Of a stretch of 64,000 nt of DNA, positions 47,787 through 58,165 are shown piece after piece; position 1 is the stretch's first letter, and every line of letters begins with the position of its first letter. The notes beneath the pieces are model-generated. The model saw nothing but the letters and a program-made list of their open reading frames with translations, was not told the DNA's origin and did not search any database. Origin of the DNA: Methylobacterium sp. DB0501 (GTDB taxonomy: Bacteria; Pseudomonadota; Alphaproteobacteria; Rhizobiales; Beijerinckiaceae). Where the stretch lies: the NCBI RefSeq assembly GCF_011043735.1, contig NZ_JAAKGV010000005.1, positions 186,001-250,000 on the forward strand, read 5' to 3'. The translations under genes and the position numbers were made by a program.

Positions 47787-48365
47787 ATGAGAGTTTTGTT
47801 CTTGACCCATCCCGAGGTCACGATCGACCCGGCCGTGCCGGTGACCGACTGGGGGCTTTCGGCACGAGGTCGTGAGCGCATGGCGGCCTTCTGCGCACGA
47901 CCCGAGGCAACGAGCATCGGCCGTATCTTCGTCAGCGATGAGCGCAAGGCGCGAGACGGAGCCGATATGCTGCACGCGCGACGTGGGTGTCCTGTCACGA
48001 CCAATTCGCGCCTCGGCGAGAACGACCGCTCGGCCACCGGCTACGTTGCGCCGCCTCGCTTCTGGGAGATTGTGGATCGATTCTTCGCCGAGCCGGAGAC
48101 GAGCGTTTTAGGTTGGGAGCGAGCGGTGGACGCGCAGGAGCGTATCAAGGCAGCGGTGCGGGACTGTATCGCCACCCATGGCGACGGTGCCGGTGACCTG
48201 TGCATCGTTTCGCATGGAGGGGTCGGCACGCTGCTTCTGTGTGACCTGCTGGGCGAGCCCATCTCACGGGACCATGGTCAGCCGATAGCAGGGGGCGGCT
48301 GTTTCTTCGCATTCGACGGCGCGACATGGATGCTGGAGCATGGTTGGCGCGACATCGTGCCATGA
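47787..48365 (+). CDS. Histidine-phosphatase superfamily relative
   Basis: 192 residues from ATG 47787; a GTG four codons earlier is possible. The family layout is present (LTHPEVTIDPAVPVTDWGLS, FVSDERKARDGADML, DLCIVSHGGVGTLLLCDLLG), but the first motif reads LTHPEV where the enzymes have RHGE, so the Arg is missing. The second catalytic His (VSHGGV) remains. Function uncertain: altered phosphatase or non-catalytic protein. Confidence 0.75.
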   Translation: MRVLFLTHPEVTIDPAVPVTDWGLSARGRERMAAFCARPEATSIGRIFVSDERKARDGADMLHARRGCPVTTNSRLGENDRSATGYVAPPRFWEIVDRFFAEPETSVLGWERAVDAQERIKAAVRDCIATHGDGAGDLCIVSHGGVGTLLLCDLLGEPISRDHGQPIAGGGCFFAFDGATWMLEHGWRDIVP

Positions 48366-48515
48366 TCACGTGGCCACAATGGAGAGTGCCAGGGTTCTCA
48401 TTGCATGTCTCGAACGCCGCCGTTCGCACGGTCAAGCTGACCGGGTTTTGACCCTCGATCATTTTCCGACGAGGCAGATACTGGTTCGTCGTAGAAACGC
48501 GGCAAAATCGAAGAT

Positions 48516-48558
48516 CTAGAGCAGCGCTCGATTGCATCGCGATCGGGCGCTGCTCTAG
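48516..48558. repeat. 12-bp inverted repeat element
   Basis: CTAGAGCAGCGC (48516-48527) and GCGCTGCTCTAG (48547-48558) are perfect 12-bp arms around a 19-base loop with ATTGCATCGCGATC. It resembles the intergenic palindromes of Methylobacterium genomes (from memory). The stretch 48366-48722 has no supported gene. Confidence 0.55.
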
Positions 48559-48722
48559 CCAATTCGATCGTCGCCCCGACGGGCATCATCCGAATGCGTC
48601 GCGAACGGACGATGCCCGAGTTTTGGATCGCGCCGCATCCCCGGTAACGTCACGATATTCCAAGCAGATCTTGCACAGGCGGCTGCCGGTTTTGCAATAA
48701 AAATCTGCGGTTACAAGAACCC

Positions 48723-48762
48723 AAGCGGATGAAGCGTCGGCCTGCCGATGCTTCATCCGCTT
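48723..48762 (-). terminator. Terminator-like hairpin at the MFS gene end
   Basis: AAGCGGATGAAGC (48723-48735) pairs perfectly with GCTTCATCCGCTT (48750-48762), and GTCGG/CCGAT extends the stem to about 18 bp with a 4-base loop. The arm overlaps the MFS stop codon. Confidence 0.65.
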
Positions 48763-50116
48763 AGGCCGAGAGCGCCTCGCCCCGCGTCTCGGGCGTGGCC
48801 AGCATCGTGGCGACGCCGACGAGGCTCGTCGCGATGACGTACCAGGCGGGCGCGAGGGGATCGCCGGTGACGCCGATCAGCCAGGTGACGACGAGCTGCG
48901 TCGTGCCGCCGAACACGGTGACGACGAAGGCGTAGGCCACCGACAGGCCGGCGCTGCGCACGCTGCGCGGCAGAAGTTCGGGGATCGCCACCAGGCTCGC
49001 CGCGCCGCTCATCGCGCCGAGCGTCGCGATCAGGGCCGAGACGCCGAGCAGGGTGGCGGGGCCGGGATGCTGCGTCATCACCAAGAAGGCCGGGTAGGCG
49101 GAAAACAGCAGCAGGACCCGCGGCACGATCATCACCAGCCGCCGGCCGTAGGCGTCGGCGAGGCGCCCGGCCAGCAGCGAGAAGACGAGGACGCACACCC
49201 CGACCACCGCCGTCGCGGCGATCGACAGGCTCGCCGGCAGCTTCAGCGTGGTGATCGCGTAGGTGGTCATGTAGTTGCCGACATAGGTCGAGACCGTGCC
49301 GCAGAGCAGGATCGGCACCATCAGCGCCAGCGTGCCGCCGTGGTCGCGCAGCAGCCGGGAGAGCACCGCGCCGGTGGTGGCCTCCGCCTGACCGGCGCAC
49401 TCGCCGGCGGTCTCCGGCATGGCGCGGCGGATGTAGAACCCGACCGGGATGATGAGGAGGCCGATGAGGAACGGGACGCGCCAGCCCCAGTCCTGCATCT
49501 GTTCAGGAGTCAGCGCCAGGGACAGGGCGAGGCCGATGGTGCCGGCTGCGAGGGTCGCGATGCCCTGGCTCGCCAGCTGCCAGCTGGCATAGAGGCCGCG
49601 CTTGACGGGTGGCGCGCTCTCGATGAGGTAGGCCGTCGAGGGGCCGACCTCGCCGCCGAGCGCGAATCCCTGGATCAGGCGCCCGATCACGATCAGGATC
49701 GGGGCGGCGATGCCGATCGTGGCAAAGCCGGGCGTCAGCGCCAGCATCAGCATGCCGACCGCCATCAGGCCGATGGTGAGCATCATGGCGGGCTTGCGCC
49801 CGGCGCGGTCGGCATAGGCGCCGATGAACACGCCGCCGATCGGCCGGGTGACGAAGCCGACCCCGAAGGTCGCCACCGAGGCGAGCAGGCTGAGCCAGGC
49901 GTCGCCGGCCGGGAAGAAGGTGCGGCCGATCGTGACGGCGAAGAAGGCGTAGGTGGTGAAGTCGTAGAATTCGAGGGTGTTGCCGACCACCGCGGCGGCG
50001 ACGCCGCGCCGGCGCGCGGCGTCGTCCGGGGCGGGGAGCGCGGCATGCCGCAGGCCGGCATCGGGCAGCGGCGCGGGTCCGGCCGTGGTCACGGCCGTCT
50101 CGATGGCTGTATTCAT
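48761..50116 (-). CDS. MFS transporter, metabolite:H+ symporter (MHS) type
   Basis: 451 residues with about 12 hydrophobic segments. MHS-family landmarks: AAVVGNTLEFYDFTTYAFFA, VTRPIGGVFIGAYADRAGRK and RLIQGFALGGEVGPSTAYLI (the conserved loop 4-5 motif). Such carriers import dicarboxylates, betaines, shikimate or amino-acid-like compounds with protons. It is downstream of the riboswitch-controlled D-amino-acid dehydrogenase (143-base gap with a strong hairpin), so it may be weakly co-expressed or have its own promoter. Confidence 0.88.
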   Translation of the reverse strand: MNTAIETAVTTAGPAPLPDAGLRHAALPAPDDAARRRGVAAAVVGNTLEFYDFTTYAFFAVTIGRTFFPAGDAWLSLLASVATFGVGFVTRPIGGVFIGAYADRAGRKPAMMLTIGLMAVGMLMLALTPGFATIGIAAPILIVIGRLIQGFALGGEVGPSTAYLIESAPPVKRGLYASWQLASQGIATLAAGTIGLALSLALTPEQMQDWGWRVPFLIGLLIIPVGFYIRRAMPETAGECAGQAEATTGAVLSRLLRDHGGTLALMVPILLCGTVSTYVGNYMTTYAITTLKLPASLSIAATAVVGVCVLVFSLLAGRLADAYGRRLVMIVPRVLLLFSAYPAFLVMTQHPGPATLLGVSALIATLGAMSGAASLVAIPELLPRSVRSAGLSVAYAFVVTVFGGTTQLVVTWLIGVTGDPLAPAWYVIATSLVGVATMLATPETRGEALSA

Positions 50117-50187
50117 GGCGTTCCTCCGGCCGCGTCGCGGCTCTATATTTTGTAAATCAGGTCTTTATTTCCCGATGTTGTCTCGAT

Positions 50188-50220
50188 CCGCGGCACGGCC
50201 CGCGATGGGCCGTGCCGCGG
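50188..50220 (-). terminator. Strong hairpin between the dehydrogenase and MFS genes
   Basis: CCGCGGCACGGCCC (50188-50201) and GGGCCGTGCCGCGG (50207-50220) are a perfect 14-bp stem with a 5-base loop, 40 bases after the dehydrogenase stop. There is no T run, so it may attenuate rather than end transcription. Confidence 0.6.
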
Positions 50221-50259
50221 CCGTCTCGCGACGGAGCGGCCCGCGCCGGGCGCGCGGGA

Positions 50260-51531
50260 TCAGGCGGCGAGCCGGCGCCCCTCGACCGGGAGGCCGCCCT
50301 CGACCGCGTCGGCGGCGATCTGCGCCGTCGCGGCCGACAGGGTCCAGCCGAGATGCCCGTGCCCGGTATTGTAGAAGATGCCCCGCTGCCGGCCCGGCCC
50401 CACCCGCGGCAGCATGCCGGGCATCATCGGCCGCAGGCCGCTCCAGGCCACCACCCGGTCGGTCGCCACGCGCGGGAACTGCTCCCGCGTCCAGCGCACC
50501 AGGGGCTCGATCCGGTCGTGCCGGATGTCGCGGTTGAACCCGTTGAACTCGGCGGTGCCGGCGACGCGGAACCGGTCCGGCCCGAGGCGGCTCGTCACGA
50601 TCTTCGTCGCGTCGTCCAGGATGCTGACCTGCGGCGCCGCCTCCTGGCTCTCGGGCGTGTGCAGCTGCACGGTGATCGAGTAGCCCTTCACGGGATAGAT
50701 GTTCAGGCGGTCGCCGAGCGCGGCGGCGAGATCGCGGCTGGCGCAGCCGGCGCAAATCACCACCCCGTCGACGTCGAGCAGCTCCGGCCGGGGGATCGCC
50801 GCGGCGCCGTCGTCGCGCGCCGCCGGCCGCCAGCGGAGGCGCCAGCCCCCGCCCGCCGGCTCGATCGCCTCGATCGCGGCGTCGTAGCGGAACCGCACGC
50901 CGCGCCGGGCGCAGGCCTCGGCGAGGCCGCGGGTGAACTTGTGGATGTCGCCGGTCGAATCCGAGGGCGTGAAGAAGCCGCCGTGATACGAGCCCTGCAG
51001 GGTCGGCTCGATCCGCCGGATCTCCTCGGGCGTGACCGCATCGCGGGCGAGCCCGCCCTTGCGCAGCAGGGCGTTGACCGCGAGCGCCTTCTCGAACCCG
51101 GGCCGGTCCCGGTAGAAGTGCAGGATGCCGCGCTGCTCCAGGTTGAAGTCGATGTTCTCCCGCTCGGCCATGGCGAACATCTGCTCGCGGGCGGCGAGCG
51201 CCAGGCGCACCGTCTCGACCGTGTTGGCCTCGTAATGCCGGATCTGGCCGATGAACTCGGCCATCCAGGAATACTTGTGCCAGCTCGGCTTCGGGTTGAC
51301 GAGCAGCGGCGCGTCGCGCCGCATCATCCACTTGAGGCCCTGGAGGATGGTCGCCGTCTTGTTCCAGACCTCGGCGTTGCTGACCGAGAGCTGGCCGCCA
51401 TTGGCGAACGAGGTCTCCATGCCGGCGTAGCGGTGGCGGTCGAGGACCGTCACGTCGTAGCCGCGCTGCATGAGCGCATAGGCGGTGGTCACGCCGGTGA
51501 TGCCGGCGCCGATGACGGCAATGTGGGACAT
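50260..51531 (-). CDS. dadA: D-amino-acid dehydrogenase (FAD, DadA family)
   Basis: 423 residues of the DAO/DadA fold. N-terminal FAD loop IAVIGAGITGVTTAYAL (residues 4-20), DRHRYAGMETSFANGGQLSV typical of DadA, and the C-terminal block FYNTGHGHLGWTLSAATAQ. It deaminates D-amino acids (typically D-Ala) to ketoacids, feeding electrons to quinone. The leader is a tandem glycine riboswitch ending 57 bases before the start, so expression should respond to glycine. Possibly it also takes glycine or sarcosine-like substrates; that is inference. Confidence 0.9.
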   Translation of the reverse strand: MSHIAVIGAGITGVTTAYALMQRGYDVTVLDRHRYAGMETSFANGGQLSVSNAEVWNKTATILQGLKWMMRRDAPLLVNPKPSWHKYSWMAEFIGQIRHYEANTVETVRLALAAREQMFAMAERENIDFNLEQRGILHFYRDRPGFEKALAVNALLRKGGLARDAVTPEEIRRIEPTLQGSYHGGFFTPSDSTGDIHKFTRGLAEACARRGVRFRYDAAIEAIEPAGGGWRLRWRPAARDDGAAAIPRPELLDVDGVVICAGCASRDLAAALGDRLNIYPVKGYSITVQLHTPESQEAAPQVSILDDATKIVTSRLGPDRFRVAGTAEFNGFNRDIRHDRIEPLVRWTREQFPRVATDRVVAWSGLRPMMPGMLPRVGPGRQRGIFYNTGHGHLGWTLSAATAQIAADAVEGGLPVEGRRLAA

Positions 51532-51564
51532 GGATCAGGCTTTCCGTGAACGAGGGCGACCGAA

Positions 51565-51581
51565 GGCGGGGTGACCCCGCC
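51565..51581 (-). promoter_or_regulatory. Hairpin between riboswitch and dadA start
   Basis: GGCGGGG-TGA-CCCCGCC, a perfect 7-bp stem between the second aptamer and the start codon. It is a candidate expression platform (terminator-like or ribosome-access hairpin), though no long T run follows on the minus strand. Confidence 0.45.
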
Positions 51582-51587
51582 CATGCG

Positions 51588-51780
51588 CCCCCTCTGTCAC
51601 GGTACCTGAGAGCGTCATCCGCCCGCTGGCGCAGGCAGACATCCCCTTCGGTGGACGGCCTGTTTCAGCCGCCTCTCTCCAGAGCGTCCTGACGATACGG
51701 TCCGTTTGCCTGAGAGTTTCCGGGGCGGTTGCTCCGTCGGCGTCGGGGTAGCGCGAAGCCCCCCGATCTCTCCCGCATCG
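51588..51780 (-). promoter_or_regulatory. Tandem glycine riboswitch upstream of dadA
   Basis: The minus strand carries two glycine aptamers. The first (about 51780-51695) has GCGGGAGAG, then CGCCGACGGAGCAA and CTCTCAGGCAAACGGACCG, the canonical end of the motif. The second (about 51690-51588) has CTCTGGAGAGAGGCGGCTGA, CACCGAAGGGG and CTCTCAGGTACCGTGACAGA. The two are joined by a short linker (TATCGTCAGGA). Glycine binding normally turns the downstream gene on. The following gene is dadA, not the usual gcvTHP or glyA. Confidence 0.93.
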
Positions 51781-52353
51781 TCGTCGTGGACGTCGATACC
51801 CGTATCCGCACCGACCGCATCCGTCAAGCTTCGTTTGAAGAAAGATCCGATTCAGGGATGGATCAATGAAGAACAATACAGACTCCCGACCGGCGAGATC
51901 AGCTTATCGATCAACGCAAGCTGAAAATCCCGTGCCTTGGGGCAGGACGGGCACATCATCGACCGGACGACGACGGCAATGGCCACCACCGGGACAGGCC
52001 TGTCCGGCAATCCGGCGTGCAATGCCGTCCGGGTGCAGTCTGGATGGCCGGCCCGCCGCCGTCCAAGACCGATCGGGAACGATACCATTCCTGCGAGGAA
52101 TGAATCCGCCAGGAGTCACGCCTGCGCGGCGCTTCCCGCTCCCCGGCTGCGCAAATATCGGGCAGGCCGGCGGAGGCTCGGCCCCGCGGACGCATCGTCG
52201 CTCCCGTGCGATCGCCCCGGATCCCCTGCCGCAACGGTTGCCAGGCGGTCCCGCGCAGCCGAACCCGGAATCCATCGGCGGGAACGCGCCGGAATGAGGC
52301 GGAAAGCGGTGCGGATTGCCTGATTTTTTCTCAGGCCGGGACCTGCCCAACGA
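51781..52353. other. Intergenic stretch, no supported gene
   Basis: About 570 bases between the riboswitch promoter side and the amino-acid transporter promoter. Several frames of 70-150 codons exist on both strands but have no ribosome site and no recognisable protein text. The dadA promoter should lie in the left part of it. Confidence 0.5.
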
Positions 52354-52393
52354 TTGACATCCGATCCGGAATGGCGACGATATGTCTAATCAT
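52354..52393 (+). promoter_or_regulatory. Promoter with HutC-like site for the amino-acid transporter
   Basis: TTGACA (52354-52359) is 16 bases before GACGAT (52376-52381). Overlapping it, ATGTCTAATCAT (52382-52393) resembles the HutC/GntR site pattern NyGTMTAKACNy. A GntR/HutC-type gene closes the same operon, so autorepression is likely. Confidence 0.4.
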
Positions 52394-52472
52394 AATCCCG
52401 ATCGGCGACCGTCAGCCGCCCCGTTTACTCCGTCCTGCCTTGATCCGCCGGCTTATCTCTTGGGAGACCTGC

Positions 52473-53303
52473 ATGAACAAGCGTTTCTTCGTACAGATCA
52501 CCCTCGGGCTCGGCCTGGCGATGACCCTGCCGGGGATGGCGCACGCTCAGGACGCCCTGGCGCGCGTCAAGGCGGCGGGTACCCTGAAGGTCGGGACCGA
52601 GACGGCGTTCGCGCCGTTCGATTTCATCGACGCCGCCGGTGAGCATGCCGGCTTCAACGTCGATACCTTCGCGGAAGTCGGCAAGGAACTCGGCGTCAAG
52701 ATCCAGTGGGTCGAGCTGCCCTGGGACGGCGTGCTGCCGGCGCTCGAGGCCGGGCAGTTCAACATGGTGGCGGGGCCCGCCACCATCACCAAGGCGCGGA
52801 TGGAGCGCTACCGGTTCCTGTCGCCGGTCGCCGAGGCGACCGTCGCCGTCCTGCGGCGCGCGAAGGACGACACGATCAAGGCGCCCCAGGACATCGCCGG
52901 CAAGACCGTCGGCGCCGGCAAGGCGACGGCGCAGCTCGCCCAGCTGAAGACCTACAGCGCGACGCTGCCCAAGCCGGTCGAGACGCGCGAATATCCCGGC
53001 TTCAACGAGGCCTATGCCGATCTGGCGGCGGGGCGCATCGCCGCCGTGGCGAACTCGCTGCCGAACATCGCCTACGTCGCCTCGAAGCAGCCGAACGTCT
53101 TCGCGGTCGTCAAGCCGCCCTTCGGCCAGAAGAGCTATTTCGGCTATATCGGCACCAAGAAGCCGGACGATCAGCCGCTGCTCGACGCCGTGCAGGCGGC
53201 GCTGGTGAAGATCAAGGCCGACGGCCGCATGAAGAAGCTGCAGGAGAAGTGGTTCGGCACCGCCTTCGACACGCCGGACGTGGCGCCGGAGCCGAGCTTC
53301 TGA
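52473..53303 (+). CDS. Polar amino-acid ABC substrate-binding protein
   Basis: 276 residues from the ATG at 52473 (GGGAGA upstream). Signal peptide ends in MAHA before QDALARV. SBP_bac_3 text: AGTLKVGTETAFAPFDFIDA, GFNVDTFAEVGKELGVKIQW, LPALEAGQFNMVAGPATITK, EAYADLAAGRIAAVANSLPN, KKLQEKWFGTAF. Binds polar amino acids or similar compounds such as His, Cys or Glu. First gene of a five-gene operon. Confidence 0.9.
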   Translation: MNKRFFVQITLGLGLAMTLPGMAHAQDALARVKAAGTLKVGTETAFAPFDFIDAAGEHAGFNVDTFAEVGKELGVKIQWVELPWDGVLPALEAGQFNMVAGPATITKARMERYRFLSPVAEATVAVLRRAKDDTIKAPQDIAGKTVGAGKATAQLAQLKTYSATLPKPVETREYPGFNEAYADLAAGRIAAVANSLPNIAYVASKQPNVFAVVKPPFGQKSYFGYIGTKKPDDQPLLDAVQAALVKIKADGRMKKLQEKWFGTAFDTPDVAPEPSF

Positions 53304-53327
53304 CGCGGCCGCGACCGTGAGAGCGCG

Positions 53328-53972
53328 ATGACCGTCCGGCTGTTCGAACTGATGCTGAAGGCGGCCGGGTACACGGTCGTCATCAGCGTCGCGTCGATCG
53401 CGATCGGCCTCCTGATCGGCATCCTGGTCTGCGCGGCCAAGCTCTCGCCGCGGCCGTGGCTGCGCTGGCCGGCGAGCCTGTTCGTGAGCTTCTTCCGCGG
53501 CGTGCCGCTCCTCGTCCAGCTCCTGCTGATCTACAACCTGCTGCCGGCGATCGGCATCGCGGTGCCGAGCGTCGTGGCGGCGCTGATCGGCCTGTCGCTC
53601 TGCACCGCCGCCTACCAGGCCGAGAACCTGCGCGGCGGCTTCCTCAGCGTGCCGCGCGGCCTGCTCGAGGCTGCCGACATGGCGGGCCTGTCGCCCTGGC
53701 AGCATTTCCGCCGCATCCGCGCCCCGATCGCCCTGCGTCTCACCGTCCCGGCTCTCGTCAACGAGGCGATCCTGATCCTGAAGGCGTCGTCGCTGATCTC
53801 GGTGGTCGGGGTCATCGAGCTGACGCGCACGGCACAGAACCTCGCCGCCTCGACCTACGAGCCGCTGCTCTTCTACTCGGTCGCCGGCGGCCTGTACCTG
53901 GCGATCAACTGGGTCGTGGCGGCCGGCGGCAGCCTGGCCGAGCGCGCGCTACGCCGGGGGCGGCTCGCATGA
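53328..53972 (+). CDS. Polar amino-acid ABC permease, HisM type
   Basis: 214 residues with five or so spans. The EAA loop is EAADMAGLSPWQHFRRIRAP. Also YTVVISVASIAIGLLIGILV and SFFRGVPLLVQLLLIYNLLP (typical RGtP motif of HisM/GlnP). It starts 24 bases after the binding protein and overlaps the second permease. Confidence 0.9.
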   Translation: MTVRLFELMLKAAGYTVVISVASIAIGLLIGILVCAAKLSPRPWLRWPASLFVSFFRGVPLLVQLLLIYNLLPAIGIAVPSVVAALIGLSLCTAAYQAENLRGGFLSVPRGLLEAADMAGLSPWQHFRRIRAPIALRLTVPALVNEAILILKASSLISVVGVIELTRTAQNLAASTYEPLLFYSVAGGLYLAINWVVAAGGSLAERALRRGRLA

Positions 53973-54631
53973 GCTTCGACGGATCGGTCATCCTCGCGGC
54001 GCTGCCGGCGATCCTGTCCGGGCTCAAGGTCACGCTCGGCATCTGGGTGGCGGCGACCGCCCTGGGCATCGCGCTCGGCTTCGTCGTCGCGGCGTTCCGG
54101 CATTTCGGGCCGCGGCCGCTCGGCCTCGCCTTGCGGCTCGCCGTCGAGGTGCTGCGGGGCACGCCCTTCCTGATCCAGATCTTCCTGCTCTATTTCGGCG
54201 GTCCCTTCATCGGGCTCAGCCTCGATCCGGTGCCGGCCGGTCTCCTGGGCCTGAGCCTCTACGCCGCGGCCTACTTCTCCGAGATCTTCCGGGCGGGCTT
54301 TCTCGCCGTGCCGCGGGGCCATGTCGAGGCGGCGCAATGCGTGGGCTTGAGCCAGGCCCAGATCGTCCGGCGCATCCTCATCCCCGAGATGACCATGCTG
54401 GTCCTGCCGCAATGCGTGAACATGGCGGTGATCCTGGTCAAGGAGACGGCCGTCCTGTCGATCATCGCGGTGCCCGAGGCGACGGCGGTCATCAGCGCGC
54501 TGGGCTCGCAGCAATACGCCTTCGTGGAATCGCTCTTCCTGCTCGCCGTCATCTACTGGGGCTTGGTCGAGGCCTGCGGCCGGGCCGGCCGGGCGCTCGA
54601 AACCCGGCTCTCGAAGTTCAGGTTCGCATGA
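53969..54631 (+). CDS. Polar amino-acid ABC permease, second subunit
   Basis: 220 residues from ATG 53969 (overlap of 4 with the first permease). The EAA loop is EAAQCVGLSQAQIVRRILIP and VEVLRGTPFLIQIFLLYFGG is the RGTP segment. Pairs with the preceding permease and with the ATPase. Confidence 0.9.
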   Translation: MSFDGSVILAALPAILSGLKVTLGIWVAATALGIALGFVVAAFRHFGPRPLGLALRLAVEVLRGTPFLIQIFLLYFGGPFIGLSLDPVPAGLLGLSLYAAAYFSEIFRAGFLAVPRGHVEAAQCVGLSQAQIVRRILIPEMTMLVLPQCVNMAVILVKETAVLSIIAVPEATAVISALGSQQYAFVESLFLLAVIYWGLVEACGRAGRALETRLSKFRFA

Positions 54632-55434
54632 CGCTCCCCGCCCCCGCCATCGCCATCCGCCGCCTGTCGAAGAGCTACGGCCGAACCGAGGTCCTGCACG
54701 GCATCGACCTCGAGATCGCCCGCGGCGCGACCACCTGCCTGATCGGCCCGTCGGGATCGGGCAAGTCGACCCTGCTGCGCTGCATCGCGTTCCTGGAGGA
54801 GGCGACGAGCGGCACCATCCTGATCGACGGCCAGCCGCTCGGCTTCGAGGAGCAGGCGGCCGGACGGCGCGTCCGCCTCCCGCCGCAGCGCATCCGCAAG
54901 GTGCGGTCGGGCATCGGCATGGTGTTCCAGCAGTTCAACCTGTGGCCGCACATGACGGCGCTCGGCAACGTCACCGAGGCGCTGGTCACCGTGAAGGGCC
55001 TGTCGCGCCAGGAGGCCGATGCCCGCGGCATGGCGCAGCTGCGCCGCGTCGGGCTCGAGGCGCGGGCCCGGCACTACCCGTCCGAATTGTCCGGCGGCCA
55101 GCAGCAGCGCGTCGCGATCGCCCGCGCTCTCGCGCTCGAGCCGGAGATCCTGCTGTTCGACGAGCCGACCGCCTCGCTCGATCCCGAGCTGACCGGCGAG
55201 GTGCTGAACGTGATGCGCGATCTCGGCGGCGAGGGCATGACGATGGTGGTCGTCACGCACGAGATCGGATTCGCCGCGACCGTCGGCCAGCGCATCGTCT
55301 TCCTGGATCACGGGCGCGTCCTCCTGAACGGCACGCCGGCCGAGCTGTTCGCCGCGCCGCGCCATCCGCGCCTGACCCAGTTCCTCGAAACCTACCTCGA
55401 CCGCGGGGCGGCCATGTTGCTGAAGCCCGCGTGA
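54628..55434 (+). CDS. Polar amino-acid ABC transporter ATPase
   Basis: 268 residues. Walker A GPSGSGKSTLLR, signature LSGGQQQRVAIARALA, Walker B EILLFDEPTASLDPEL, H-loop VVVTHEIGFA. The region GMVFQQFNLWPHMTALGNV is typical of GlnQ/HisP. It overlaps the permease and the regulator genes. Confidence 0.92.
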   Translation: MTLPAPAIAIRRLSKSYGRTEVLHGIDLEIARGATTCLIGPSGSGKSTLLRCIAFLEEATSGTILIDGQPLGFEEQAAGRRVRLPPQRIRKVRSGIGMVFQQFNLWPHMTALGNVTEALVTVKGLSRQEADARGMAQLRRVGLEARARHYPSELSGGQQQRVAIARALALEPEILLFDEPTASLDPELTGEVLNVMRDLGGEGMTMVVVTHEIGFAATVGQRIVFLDHGRVLLNGTPAELFAAPRHPRLTQFLETYLDRGAAMLLKPA

Positions 55435-56207
55435 GCGCCCCCGCCCAACCCGGTTCCCCTCCGGCCGGCCTCCGCAAGGGGGCGACCCGGCACGACCACA
55501 TTGTCGAGGACATCCGGTCGTTCATCGTCGACGGGCGCTGGCCGCCGGGTTTCCAGCTCCCGGTCGAGACCGACCTCGCCGAGCGCTACGGCGTGTCGCG
55601 CATGACCATGAACAAGGCGCTCGGCCAGCTGGCGCGCGAGGGCTTCCTCGTCCGGCGCAAGAAGAGCGGCACGCAGGTCGCGCAGCCGCGCGCCGAATCC
55701 GCCGTGGTGGCGATCGCCGACATCCGCGACGAGGTGCGCCGCTCGGGCCGGGCCCACCGCTTCCACCTGCTCGCGCGCCGCGCCCGGCCGGGCCGGGAGG
55801 AGGACGCGCTGCTCCTCGGCGACGCGCCCGGGAGCAGGGAGGTGCTGTGGCTGCAGGGCTTGCACCTGGCGGACGACCACCCGTTCTGCTTCGAGACCCG
55901 CCTCATCAATCCCGACGCCGCCGAGGGCGCGAAGGAGCAGGATTTCGCCGACCTCGCGCCCGGCGCCTGGCTGCTCGGGGCCGTGCCCTGGAGCGTGGCG
56001 AGCCACCGCGTCCGGGCGGTGAACGCGACCGCGGCCGAGGCCAAGCTGCTCGAGCTCGAGGTCGGCGAGGCCTGCCTGGAAATCGTCCGGCGCACCCAGG
56101 CCGCCGGGGACTGGGTCACCGGCGTCCGGCTGCTCTATCCCGGCAGCGAGCACCAGCTCGTGGCGAATTTCGGCCCGGATGCCGGCGGCGGACCCTCCCG
56201 GGGGTGA
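55431..56207 (+). CDS. HutC/GntR-family regulator (UTRA domain)
   Basis: 258 residues from a GTG at 55431 that overlaps the ATPase stop (GTGA). GntR winged HTH around 20-85 (HIVEDIRSFIVDGRWPPGFQ, LPVETDLAERYGVSRMTMNK, ALGQLAREGFLVRRKKSGTQ) and a UTRA ligand domain to about 245. HutC-type proteins sense urocanate or related ligands; no hut genes are nearby, so its target is probably this transporter and the adjacent aminotransferase. It is the last gene of the operon. Confidence 0.88.
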   Translation: MSAPAQPGSPPAGLRKGATRHDHIVEDIRSFIVDGRWPPGFQLPVETDLAERYGVSRMTMNKALGQLAREGFLVRRKKSGTQVAQPRAESAVVAIADIRDEVRRSGRAHRFHLLARRARPGREEDALLLGDAPGSREVLWLQGLHLADDHPFCFETRLINPDAAEGAKEQDFADLAPGAWLLGAVPWSVASHRVRAVNATAAEAKLLELEVGEACLEIVRRTQAAGDWVTGVRLLYPGSEHQLVANFGPDAGGGPSRG

Positions 56208-56394
56208 AACCCGCCCGTCCGGCTCCCTTGGCCCGGCGCGCGGCGCCGAGTCGTCGGCCGCGCCGACCGGCTGCGGCCGCCCCGCGACCAGGCCCTCGGC
56301 GGCATCCGAGCCGGCGGCAAGAGTCGGCCACGGCCGTCCCGAAGCCCGGCATCGCCGCCCACTTCCTGGTTCGCTGACGGGTTCTCGCCGGCCT

Positions 56395-56490
56395 TTCCCC
56401 CGCCCCGGACGACTGGAACGAAGCGGAAGGCGGTCCGGGATCCAGCATACAGAAGCCGCTTCGCGGCACGTCTCCCCTGGATCCCGGCGC
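56395..56490. repeat. Dispersed intergenic repeat copy B1
   Basis: Contains CCGGACGACTGGAACG and inverted arms CCGGGATCCA (56435-56444) / TGGATCCCGG (56478-56487). CGGCACGTCTC and AGCCGCTTCGCGG recur, inverted, at 63248-63441. The whole gap 56208-56530 holds no gene. Confidence 0.6.
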
Positions 56491-56530
56491 CCTTTGGCGG
56501 CCCCGGGATGAGGACGGGTGAAAAATCCGC

Positions 56531-57913
56531 TCAGCCGAAGACCCGGCTCAGCGCAGCGTCGATCGCCTCGACGATCCGGTCGATGTCGTCCGGGGTCGCG
56601 ATCAGCGCCGGGCTCAGGCAGAGGGTGTTGTTGAACCCGTCGAGCGAGCGGTTGGTGGCGCCGATGATGACGCCGTTCGCCATGCAGTCGGCGACCACGG
56701 CCTGGACGCGGCGCTCGTCCATCGGCTCCTTCGTCGACCGGTCGGCGACGAGTTCCGCGCCGCAGAACAGGCCCTTGCCGCGCACGTCGCCGATGACGGC
56801 GTGGCGCCCGGCGAGGTCGTGGAGTCCCGCCATCAGCCGCTCGCCCATCGCCGCCGTGTTCTCGAGCAGGGCCTCGTCCTCGATGATCCGCATGTTCTCG
56901 AGCGCCGCGGCCGGGCCGGCGACGCAGCCGCCGAAGGTCGAGATGTCGCGAAAATAGGACATCGGGTCGGACGGATCGTCCTTGAACAGCGAGAACACCG
57001 CCTCCGTCGTCGTCGTACAGGCGATCGCCGCGTAGCCCGAGGCCACGCCCTTCGCCATGGTGACGAAATCGGGCTGCACGCCGTAATTCTGGTAGCCGAA
57101 CCACGCGCCGGTGCGGCCCATGCCGCAGACCACCTCATCGATGTGGATCAGGATTCCATGCCGGCGGCAGATGTCCTGCACCTTCTCCCAGTAGCCCGCG
57201 GGCGGGGGAATGACGCCGCCGCCGGCGGTGACGGGTTCGAGGCAGATCGCCCCGATGCTGTCGGGCCCCTCGCGCAGGATCACCGCCTCGATCGCGTCGG
57301 CGGCCCTCTCGCCGTAATTCTCCACCTGTCCCCACTGGCTGCGATATTCGAGGCAGTGGGGCACCGCCACGAAGCCGTCGGGGAACGGGCCGTAATGGGC
57401 GCGCCGCTGGTCCTGGCCGGCCGCCGCCAGCGCCCCGATCGTGGTGCCGTGATAGTCGCGCTCGCGGTAGAGGATCTTCCACTTGCGTCCGCCATGGTGC
57501 CGGTGCGCGATCTGGCGCACCATCTTGAACACCTTCTCGTTCGCCTCCGACCCCGAGTTGGAATAGTAGACCCGGGTCATGCCCGGCATCTTGGCGATCA
57601 GCCGCTCGGAGAACAGGGCCGCCGGGATCGAGCCGGCCGAGCCCGCGAAGTAATTGAGCTTGACCAGCTGGTCGCGCACCGCGTCGGCGATGCTGGTGCG
57701 GCCGTAGCCGACATTGACGGTCCAGACGCCGCCGGAGACCGCATCGAGGTAGTCGCGGCCGGTCGCGTCCCAGACGCGCATCCCCTTCCCCTCGACCATC
57801 ACCCGCGGATCGGCGGTCTCGTAGCCTTTGTGCTGCGAGAGGTGATGCCAGACATGGGCCCGGTCGGCCTCGATGACGTGGCGCAGGTCGTTGGTGCGGT
57901 GCATGTCGTTCAT
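56531..57913 (-). CDS. Class III aminotransferase, taurine-pyruvate type
   Basis: 460 residues from the ATG at 57913 (MNDMHRTND). The PLP Lys is K288 in FVTMAKGVASGYAAI. Other class III motifs: YYSNSGSEANEKVFKMVRQI, RDYHGTTIGALAAAG, ILIHIDEVVCGMGRTGAWFG. The latter and the long N terminus (HVWHHLSQHKGYE) recall taurine-pyruvate and omega-amino-acid aminotransferases. Substrate is inferred only. It may use the amino acid imported by the adjacent ABC system. Confidence 0.85.
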   Translation of the reverse strand: MNDMHRTNDLRHVIEADRAHVWHHLSQHKGYETADPRVMVEGKGMRVWDATGRDYLDAVSGGVWTVNVGYGRTSIADAVRDQLVKLNYFAGSAGSIPAALFSERLIAKMPGMTRVYYSNSGSEANEKVFKMVRQIAHRHHGGRKWKILYRERDYHGTTIGALAAAGQDQRRAHYGPFPDGFVAVPHCLEYRSQWGQVENYGERAADAIEAVILREGPDSIGAICLEPVTAGGGVIPPPAGYWEKVQDICRRHGILIHIDEVVCGMGRTGAWFGYQNYGVQPDFVTMAKGVASGYAAIACTTTTEAVFSLFKDDPSDPMSYFRDISTFGGCVAGPAAALENMRIIEDEALLENTAAMGERLMAGLHDLAGRHAVIGDVRGKGLFCGAELVADRSTKEPMDERRVQAVVADCMANGVIIGATNRSLDGFNNTLCLSPALIATPDDIDRIVEAIDAALSRVFG

Positions 57914-58165
57914 CGGGCGCCTCTGGCAACGGGCAGGACCGTCGCATTGTATCTGGTCGGGGCGCCGGGCGCTGCCCTCGCCGCGCACCGGACGGGCGCG
58001 GCGCGAGCGTCCGCGGGCTCGCGGCCGCCAGCGACCGTCAGAGGGCCGCCGGCTCGCACACCGCCCGCAGGATGGTGAGCGAGATGGAGGCCGGCTCGCT
58101 CGGCGCATGGATCCAACCGGCGACGGGGTCGCAGGCGCCGGATTCCCGAGGCCCGAGCCCGGCCG

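Follow-up and report, generated by a model that had tools for sequence, protein, structure and literature searches.

Described targets of glycine riboswitches include gcv operons, transporters, serine genes and malate synthase (PMC3766115, PMC6944388, PMC12452182, PMC2211319). In the main texts of PMC3766115, PMC12452182, PMC2211319 and PMC2258182 the term 'D-amino' is absent, and in PMC6944388 it appears in one reference title; no statement of a link between a glycine riboswitch and a D-amino acid dehydrogenase was met in the literature searched, although the supplements (12 glycine-metabolism orthologues in PMC3766115) may contain one. Passages retrieved for glycine riboswitch together with 'dada' concerned Dadabacteria and dadantii, not dadA, and those retrieved with glycine oxidase concerned thiO under TPP switches. 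One of the closest known relatives of the locus studied here is the tandem glycine riboswitch of gcvT operons, with which it has in common the aptamer family, the tandem order, the gene-proximal leader and the expected glycine-ON logic; it differs in that it precedes a DadA-like FAD enzyme. A second relative, also alphaproteobacterial and also with a target outside the cleavage system, is the switch of the malate synthase gene glcB in Pelagibacter-like metagenome fragments (PMC2211319). That target, which is not the one found here, makes sense if glycine is converted to glyoxylate; the text of PMC2211319 describing it names no enzyme for this step.

We analysed a stretch of 64,000 nucleotides from Methylobacterium sp. 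DB0501 (hereafter the window), in which a reading made from sequence alone had placed a tandem glycine riboswitch on the minus strand, at 51532-51780 and about 57 bases before dadA. An Rfam scan of window positions 48000-56000 bore this out, with two RF00504 covariance-model matches on the minus strand above the gathering score of 32. Aptamer 1 (51688-51785, model positions 1-94) scored 65.3 bits (E 3.2e-12, and 7.3e-13 in a whole-genome search). Aptamer 2 (51592-51684, its P1 formed by 51684-51680 with 51596-51592) scored 38.7 bits (E 3.4e-05), or 46.1 bits with the wider boundaries of the whole-genome search. The region had been read correctly, but aptamer 1 starts 5 nt further 5'; by the Rfam boundaries the two aptamers are 3 nt apart, and the dadA ATG (51531) lies 60 nt past the end of aptamer 2, on the same strand, so that the pair occupies a leader position. 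No further RF00504 match at E ≤ 0.001 was found among the 150 scored of 781 first-look candidates in the 7.58 Mb host assembly. By its sequence, the window RNA is an ordinary member of the glycine riboswitch class.

The dadA gene (50260-51531, minus strand) encodes a 423-residue protein with the DAO fold (PF01266, 241 bits); it falls into the PRK12409 group of FAD-dependent amino-acid dehydrogenases, and we propose it to be a glycine dehydrogenase/oxidase. The protein exceeds the cut-off of the NF009074/PRK12409 model (711.4 bits over residues 1-415, cut-off 494) and stays below those of the classical DadA model NF001933/PRK00711 (337.3 bits, cut-off 383) and of the ThiO glycine oxidase model TIGR02352 (126.6 bits, cut-off 250.8). 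The curated name of NF009074, D-amino acid dehydrogenase, counts against the glycine reading. In a hand-picked set of 35 loci, the window protein is 32-36% identical to 14 classical DadA proteins and 59-75% identical to 21 PRK12409 proteins. Both groups have the DAO fold, G390-H391-G392 and R367; residues fixed in PRK12409 and different in classical DadA include S51, N52, H138, T188, H393 and L398, which are only candidate determinants of substrate specificity. The host genome carries a separate classical DadA gene (G000:C3:174974-176233). For the E. coli enzyme, the glycine KM is given as above 500 mM in PMC9436414, which sets classical DadA apart from the activity proposed for PRK12409; the kcat/KM for glycine quoted there is 0.275 per M per s.

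Among solved structures the only relatives found by sequence at E 1e-10 were the glycine oxidases 7cyx and 4ysh. A fold search with the AlphaFold model (mean pLDDT 80.9; residues 37-41, 43-53 and 73-79 poor) likewise put these two ThiO-type structures on top, with sarcosine oxidases next. The likeness of the predicted fold to glycine oxidase carries little weight, because no classical DadA structure is among the 50 fold matches listed. The nearest named relatives listed come from Methylobacterium (73-75% identity) and an uncultured Amaricoccus metagenome-assembled genome (MAG; 73%), a list from which near records of the host itself are possibly omitted. Among named genomes, the PRK12409 family also turned up in Bradyrhizobium, Mesorhizobium, Shinella, Paraburkholderia, Caballeronia, Achromobacter, Alcaligenes and Halomonas.

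DadA had been regarded as an atypical target for a glycine riboswitch. For the PRK12409 subfamily the riboswitch is the rule; classical DadA is a different gene. In the host-family sample, PRK12409 genes occur in 29 of 149 genomes, and all 29 loci, the window included, have an upstream RF00504 match over the gathering score (20 of 20 and 9 of 9). A class-wide sample had the gene in 9 of 385 genomes, with an aptamer at all six new loci scoring above 600 bits to NF009074, our definition of a strong locus. A phylum-wide sample of 398 genomes gave 27 with the gene at E 1e-100, of which 25 exceeded the cut-off, and 20 of its 21 new strong loci had an aptamer; none of these 21 loci supplied any of the 25 upstream aptamers behind our aptamer model R1. 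The three samples together give 55 of 56 strong loci with an upstream aptamer. Named loci gave 79 of 80 (the best 80 of 594 confirmed relatives), though they may share species with the 56-locus sample, and some named genomes contribute two loci. As a control we used classical DadA, matched in 53 of 200 genomes: at none of 30 loci (the best 30 of 72 matches) did the upstream DNA, about 1.5 kb long for 29 of them and 198 nt for L192, give an aptamer match with an E-value of 1 or below. The presence of the sensor at nearly all close relatives examined suggests that the enzyme probably uses glycine and not D-amino acids.

Two loci were exceptions. L170 has no glycine aptamer in the 3.9 kb upstream of its dadA relative, the start of which is overlapped by an amino-acid permease gene (L170:125-2718). 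In L070, from an uncultured Amaricoccus MAG, there is no aptamer in the sequence covered, from a contig that begins 236 nt before a PurU-like gene with a formyl-transferase domain; this gene precedes the dadA relative with a gap of 191 nt (L070:236-2568), an order hinting at a C1/glycine operon. Aptamers were also absent from the weaker matches L068 (491 bits, or 496 with neighbours, just over the cut-off) and L069 (465 bits, below it), and from L171 and L173 at about 340 bits; L173 is also one of the 72 classical DadA matches, outside the best 30. A third match at this level to NF009074, from a genome of a different family, has a tandem glycine switch (L172:1250-1444) before a PRK00711-like DadA gene (match 1501-2712). 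The product of this gene has the PRK12409-type residues G45, S51, I136, H138 and T188 (window numbering), and its switch is perhaps a separate recruitment.

We compared the distribution of the enzyme with that of the glycine cleavage system in the 149 genomes of the host family. The gcvP gene is absent from 16 of the 29 genomes with PRK12409 dadA and from 15 of the 120 without it (Fisher 3.6e-6), or from 14 of 27 and 10 of 105 of the genomes at least 90% complete (4.7e-6); the association ignores phylogeny, and two of the 16 genomes are only 82 and 85% complete. These 16 genomes are spread over seven genera, a count that makes several losses likely. The carriers with a gcvT match over the cut-off were the same 13 as those with gcvP, and there was a weaker gcvT-like match at E 1e-40 in 22 of the 29. 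The retention of gcv genes in these 13 carriers, the host among them, counts against the explanation that we favour below. Under the stricter filters used for this search, a glycine riboswitch was present in 129 of 134 family genomes with gcvP or dadA and missing in 14 of 15 with neither. The sole family genome with a riboswitch but without gcvP (E 1e-60) and PRK12409 has it at G092:C113:13373-13469. Five genomes of the host genus were sampled besides the host and G108. Four of them (G008, G083, G130 and G147) combine aptamers and gcvP with the absence of a PRK12409 gene, while G049 lacks all three; in G008 the aptamer pair lies upstream of gcvT (L175:926-1123), and in the host and G108 upstream of dadA. 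No glycine riboswitch was found at the host gcv operon (gcvT at G000:C3:90462-91553, L174). What is new here is the near-obligate coupling of the riboswitch to one FAD enzyme family and the exchange between this family and the cleavage system.

Malate synthase G, which consumes glyoxylate, occurs in 15 of the 16 carriers lacking gcvP and in 5 of the 13 that have it, an association that likewise ignores phylogeny. Glyoxylate carboligase, considered as a general glyoxylate sink, was set aside since it occurs in only 1 of the 29 genomes. The genome associations fit a route from glycine through glyoxylate to malate.

We then examined how glycine might control dadA. The 3' end of aptamer 2, CUCAGGUACCGUGACAGAGG (51591-51610, minus strand), is predicted from the minimum-free-energy fold and from duplex calculation to act as an anti-Shine-Dalgarno strand. 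A Shine-Dalgarno (SD)-like GGAAAG (51540-51545) lies 8 nt before the ATG, and a 7-bp hairpin in the expression platform (51581-51575 with 51571-51565) forms in either predicted fold. In the OFF fold as predicted, CCGUGA (51602-51597) pairs with UCACGG (51549-51544) and UCAGGU (51609-51604) with GCCUGA (51540-51535), so that the paired segments flank and include GGAAAG. Enforcing both aptamers breaks this helix and leaves a weak local hairpin; opening 51549-51529 then takes 6.5 kcal/mol, down from 15.5 in the free fold, and opening GGAAAG takes 3.2, down from 7.6. The predicted release of the SD is only partial, as the two G of GGAAAG remain in the weak hairpin. The free fold (-137.4 kcal/mol) is also 18 kcal/mol more stable than the enforced one (-119.3), a gap exceeding what equilibrium ligand binding can supply, so that the model has to invoke folding during transcription, or tertiary contacts outside the scope of the program.

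The pairing recurs in other leaders. We tested the 20-nt segment starting at the second CUCAGG core against the SD region in 68 non-redundant leaders. Leaders pair with their own SD region at a mean of -13.7 kcal/mol, compared with -11.7 when the regions are swapped (reached in 0 of 10,000 permutations); z was -7.6 for 65 leaders and -7.3 for 28 strictly non-redundant ones. Five control segments, four of them coding and one immediately upstream of the core, gave z between -1.0 and +0.7, and the coding controls of the 28-leader set -1.3 and +1.1. The duplex of the window, at -24.7 kcal/mol, was not equalled with the SD region of any of the 67 other leaders. Exact complements of at least 6 nt occur in 20 of the 68 leaders, against a mean of 8.7 and a maximum of 15 in 200 swaps. 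The leaders include compensatory sets: CCGUGAC/GUCACGG, CCGAGAC/GUCUCGG, CCGGGAC/GUCCCGG and UCCAGAAC/GUUCUGGA. Two points count against the model: only 49 of the 68 leaders pair with their own SD region better than the cross mean, and the free fold of the window leader has the 18 kcal/mol advantage, so that the timing of folding must matter. The leader-specific complementarity and the compensatory sets make a translational glycine-ON switch the best reading of the modelled folds and the most likely mechanism. The sequence-only reading had glycine sensed to induce dadA; the predicted switch supports this direction, within the limits of the partial SD release. A possible leader-linker helix (P0, kink-turn), 5 bp of CGUCC/GGACG in the window, also beat permutation in 47 leaders (0 of 10,000), but we dropped it as evidence because the tested segments overlap P1.

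Taken together, these results make it probable that a translational ON riboswitch controls a glycine-oxidising PRK12409 enzyme for glycine removal. When glycine is absent, 51609-51597 in the 3' half of aptamer 2 would pair with the ribosome-binding region (51549-51535) and hide it; with glycine bound, aptamer 2 would keep this strand in its own core and P1, leaving the ribosome-binding site easier to open. The induced enzyme would convert glycine to glyoxylate and ammonia, passing electrons to quinone or oxygen, and so may fill the role of the cleavage system, with excess glycine removed and used. Glycine binding, induction, the ON direction in the cell, and the substrate and product are what we infer here; on the role in glycine removal the genomic evidence is indirect but consistent. 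On the best reading of the comparisons, dadA would be a glycine-induced FAD glycine dehydrogenase or oxidase misnamed as a D-amino-acid enzyme.

Control might instead be transcriptional, by intrinsic or Rho-dependent termination in the leader without hiding of the ribosome-binding site. The GC-rich 7-bp hairpin at 51581-51565 could serve such a mechanism, and for the Gluconobacter oxydans gcvT glycine leader PMC5756330 reports coverage 60-fold above that of the genes behind it. However, the hairpin lacks a T run after it and forms in both predicted folds, and the complementarity falls on the SD region, with coding and neighbouring segments giving no signal. We therefore consider termination an unlikely substitute for translational control, though a block of translation can permit Rho action and both mechanisms may coexist. 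That the riboswitch is a chance match or a decayed element without present function is scarcely credible: the low score of aptamer 2 (38.7 bits) would suit decay, but the ligand-core positions of aptamer 1 are conserved across 25 loci, aptamers are retained throughout both locus samples (55 of 56 and 79 of 80), and the window's SD duplex ranks second strongest among the 68.

As to the substrate, glycine replaces D-alanine in cell-wall precursors, and glycine toxicity mediated by peptidoglycan is established. Glycine could therefore signal peptidoglycan stress to a broad D-amino-acid dehydrogenase that rebalances D-alanine, an idea in keeping with this toxicity, with the curated family name and with the G390-H391-G392 and R367 shared with classical DadA. 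Yet oxidation of D-alanine would be expected to aggravate glycine toxicity, a classical DadA gene that lacks the riboswitch is already present in the host, the missing gcv genes of many carriers point to glycine use, and no widely recurrent neighbour family appeared when the neighbours at 31 of the 80 named loci were clustered; we find this improbable. Sarcosine or another N-methylated glycine might be the substrate, with glycine sensed as the product, as sarcosine and dimethylglycine enzymes follow the glycine oxidases among the best fold matches and one relative (L070) stands behind the PurU-like gene. An ON switch driven by its product would, however, amount to positive feedback, the association with gcv absence fits glycine consumption, and sarcosine use would presumably add glycine in cells without a cleavage system, so this too appears very unlikely. 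The sequence-only reading had suggested that the enzyme may act on glycine or sarcosine; riboswitch coupling and gcv absence make glycine the most likely substrate, and for sarcosine there is no support other than the fold similarity and the L070 neighbour.

For the glycine-dehydrogenase reading as a whole, we slightly favour extending it to the entire PRK12409 family of Pseudomonadota, which would then have repeatedly replaced the cleavage system and taken over or acquired its riboswitch. If so, the family would provide an independent glycine breakdown, from glycine to glyoxylate and, via malate synthase G, to malate. The curated PRK12409 annotation 'D-amino acid dehydrogenase' would then name the wrong substrate, the disposal of glycine in bacteria without a glycine cleavage system would be explained, and glycine switches on malate synthase would gain a rationale.

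Downstream of dadA, the 14-bp hairpin reported before is present on the minus strand (50188-50220), with perfect arms (50220-50207 and 50201-50188), a 5-nt loop and no T run, between dadA and an MHS gene. This gene (48761-50116, minus strand) encodes an MHS-type MFS carrier (metabolite/H+ symporter; PF00083, PF07690) with sub-cut-off matches to TcuC (366.5 bits, cut-off 445) and 2A0106 (333 bits, cut-off 443). The carrier does lie downstream of the hairpin, but we rejected it as a conserved partner of dadA, since tblastn found it at only five other loci; it is absent from the 10 kb of the sister genome (L176). Among the 80 named loci, 31 picked for diversity showed no widespread operon partner of dadA: the largest neighbour cluster had 5 proteins, contributed by three Methylobacterium loci, and two others had 3 each, from different genera, a result weakened by crude longest-ORF calls in GC-rich DNA, several in the wrong frame.

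Divergent from dadA, at 52320-58108, the window encodes an ABC uptake system of the family-3 binding-protein type, comprising the binding protein, two permeases and an ATPase, together with a GntR/UTRA regulator and, on the other strand, a class-III aminotransferase. A near-perfect inverted repeat, terminator-like with few T, abuts the MHS stop codon (48761-48724), and a sub-threshold match to Rfam BASRCI27 (25.4 of 59.8 bits) lies on the plus strand at 48652-48804.
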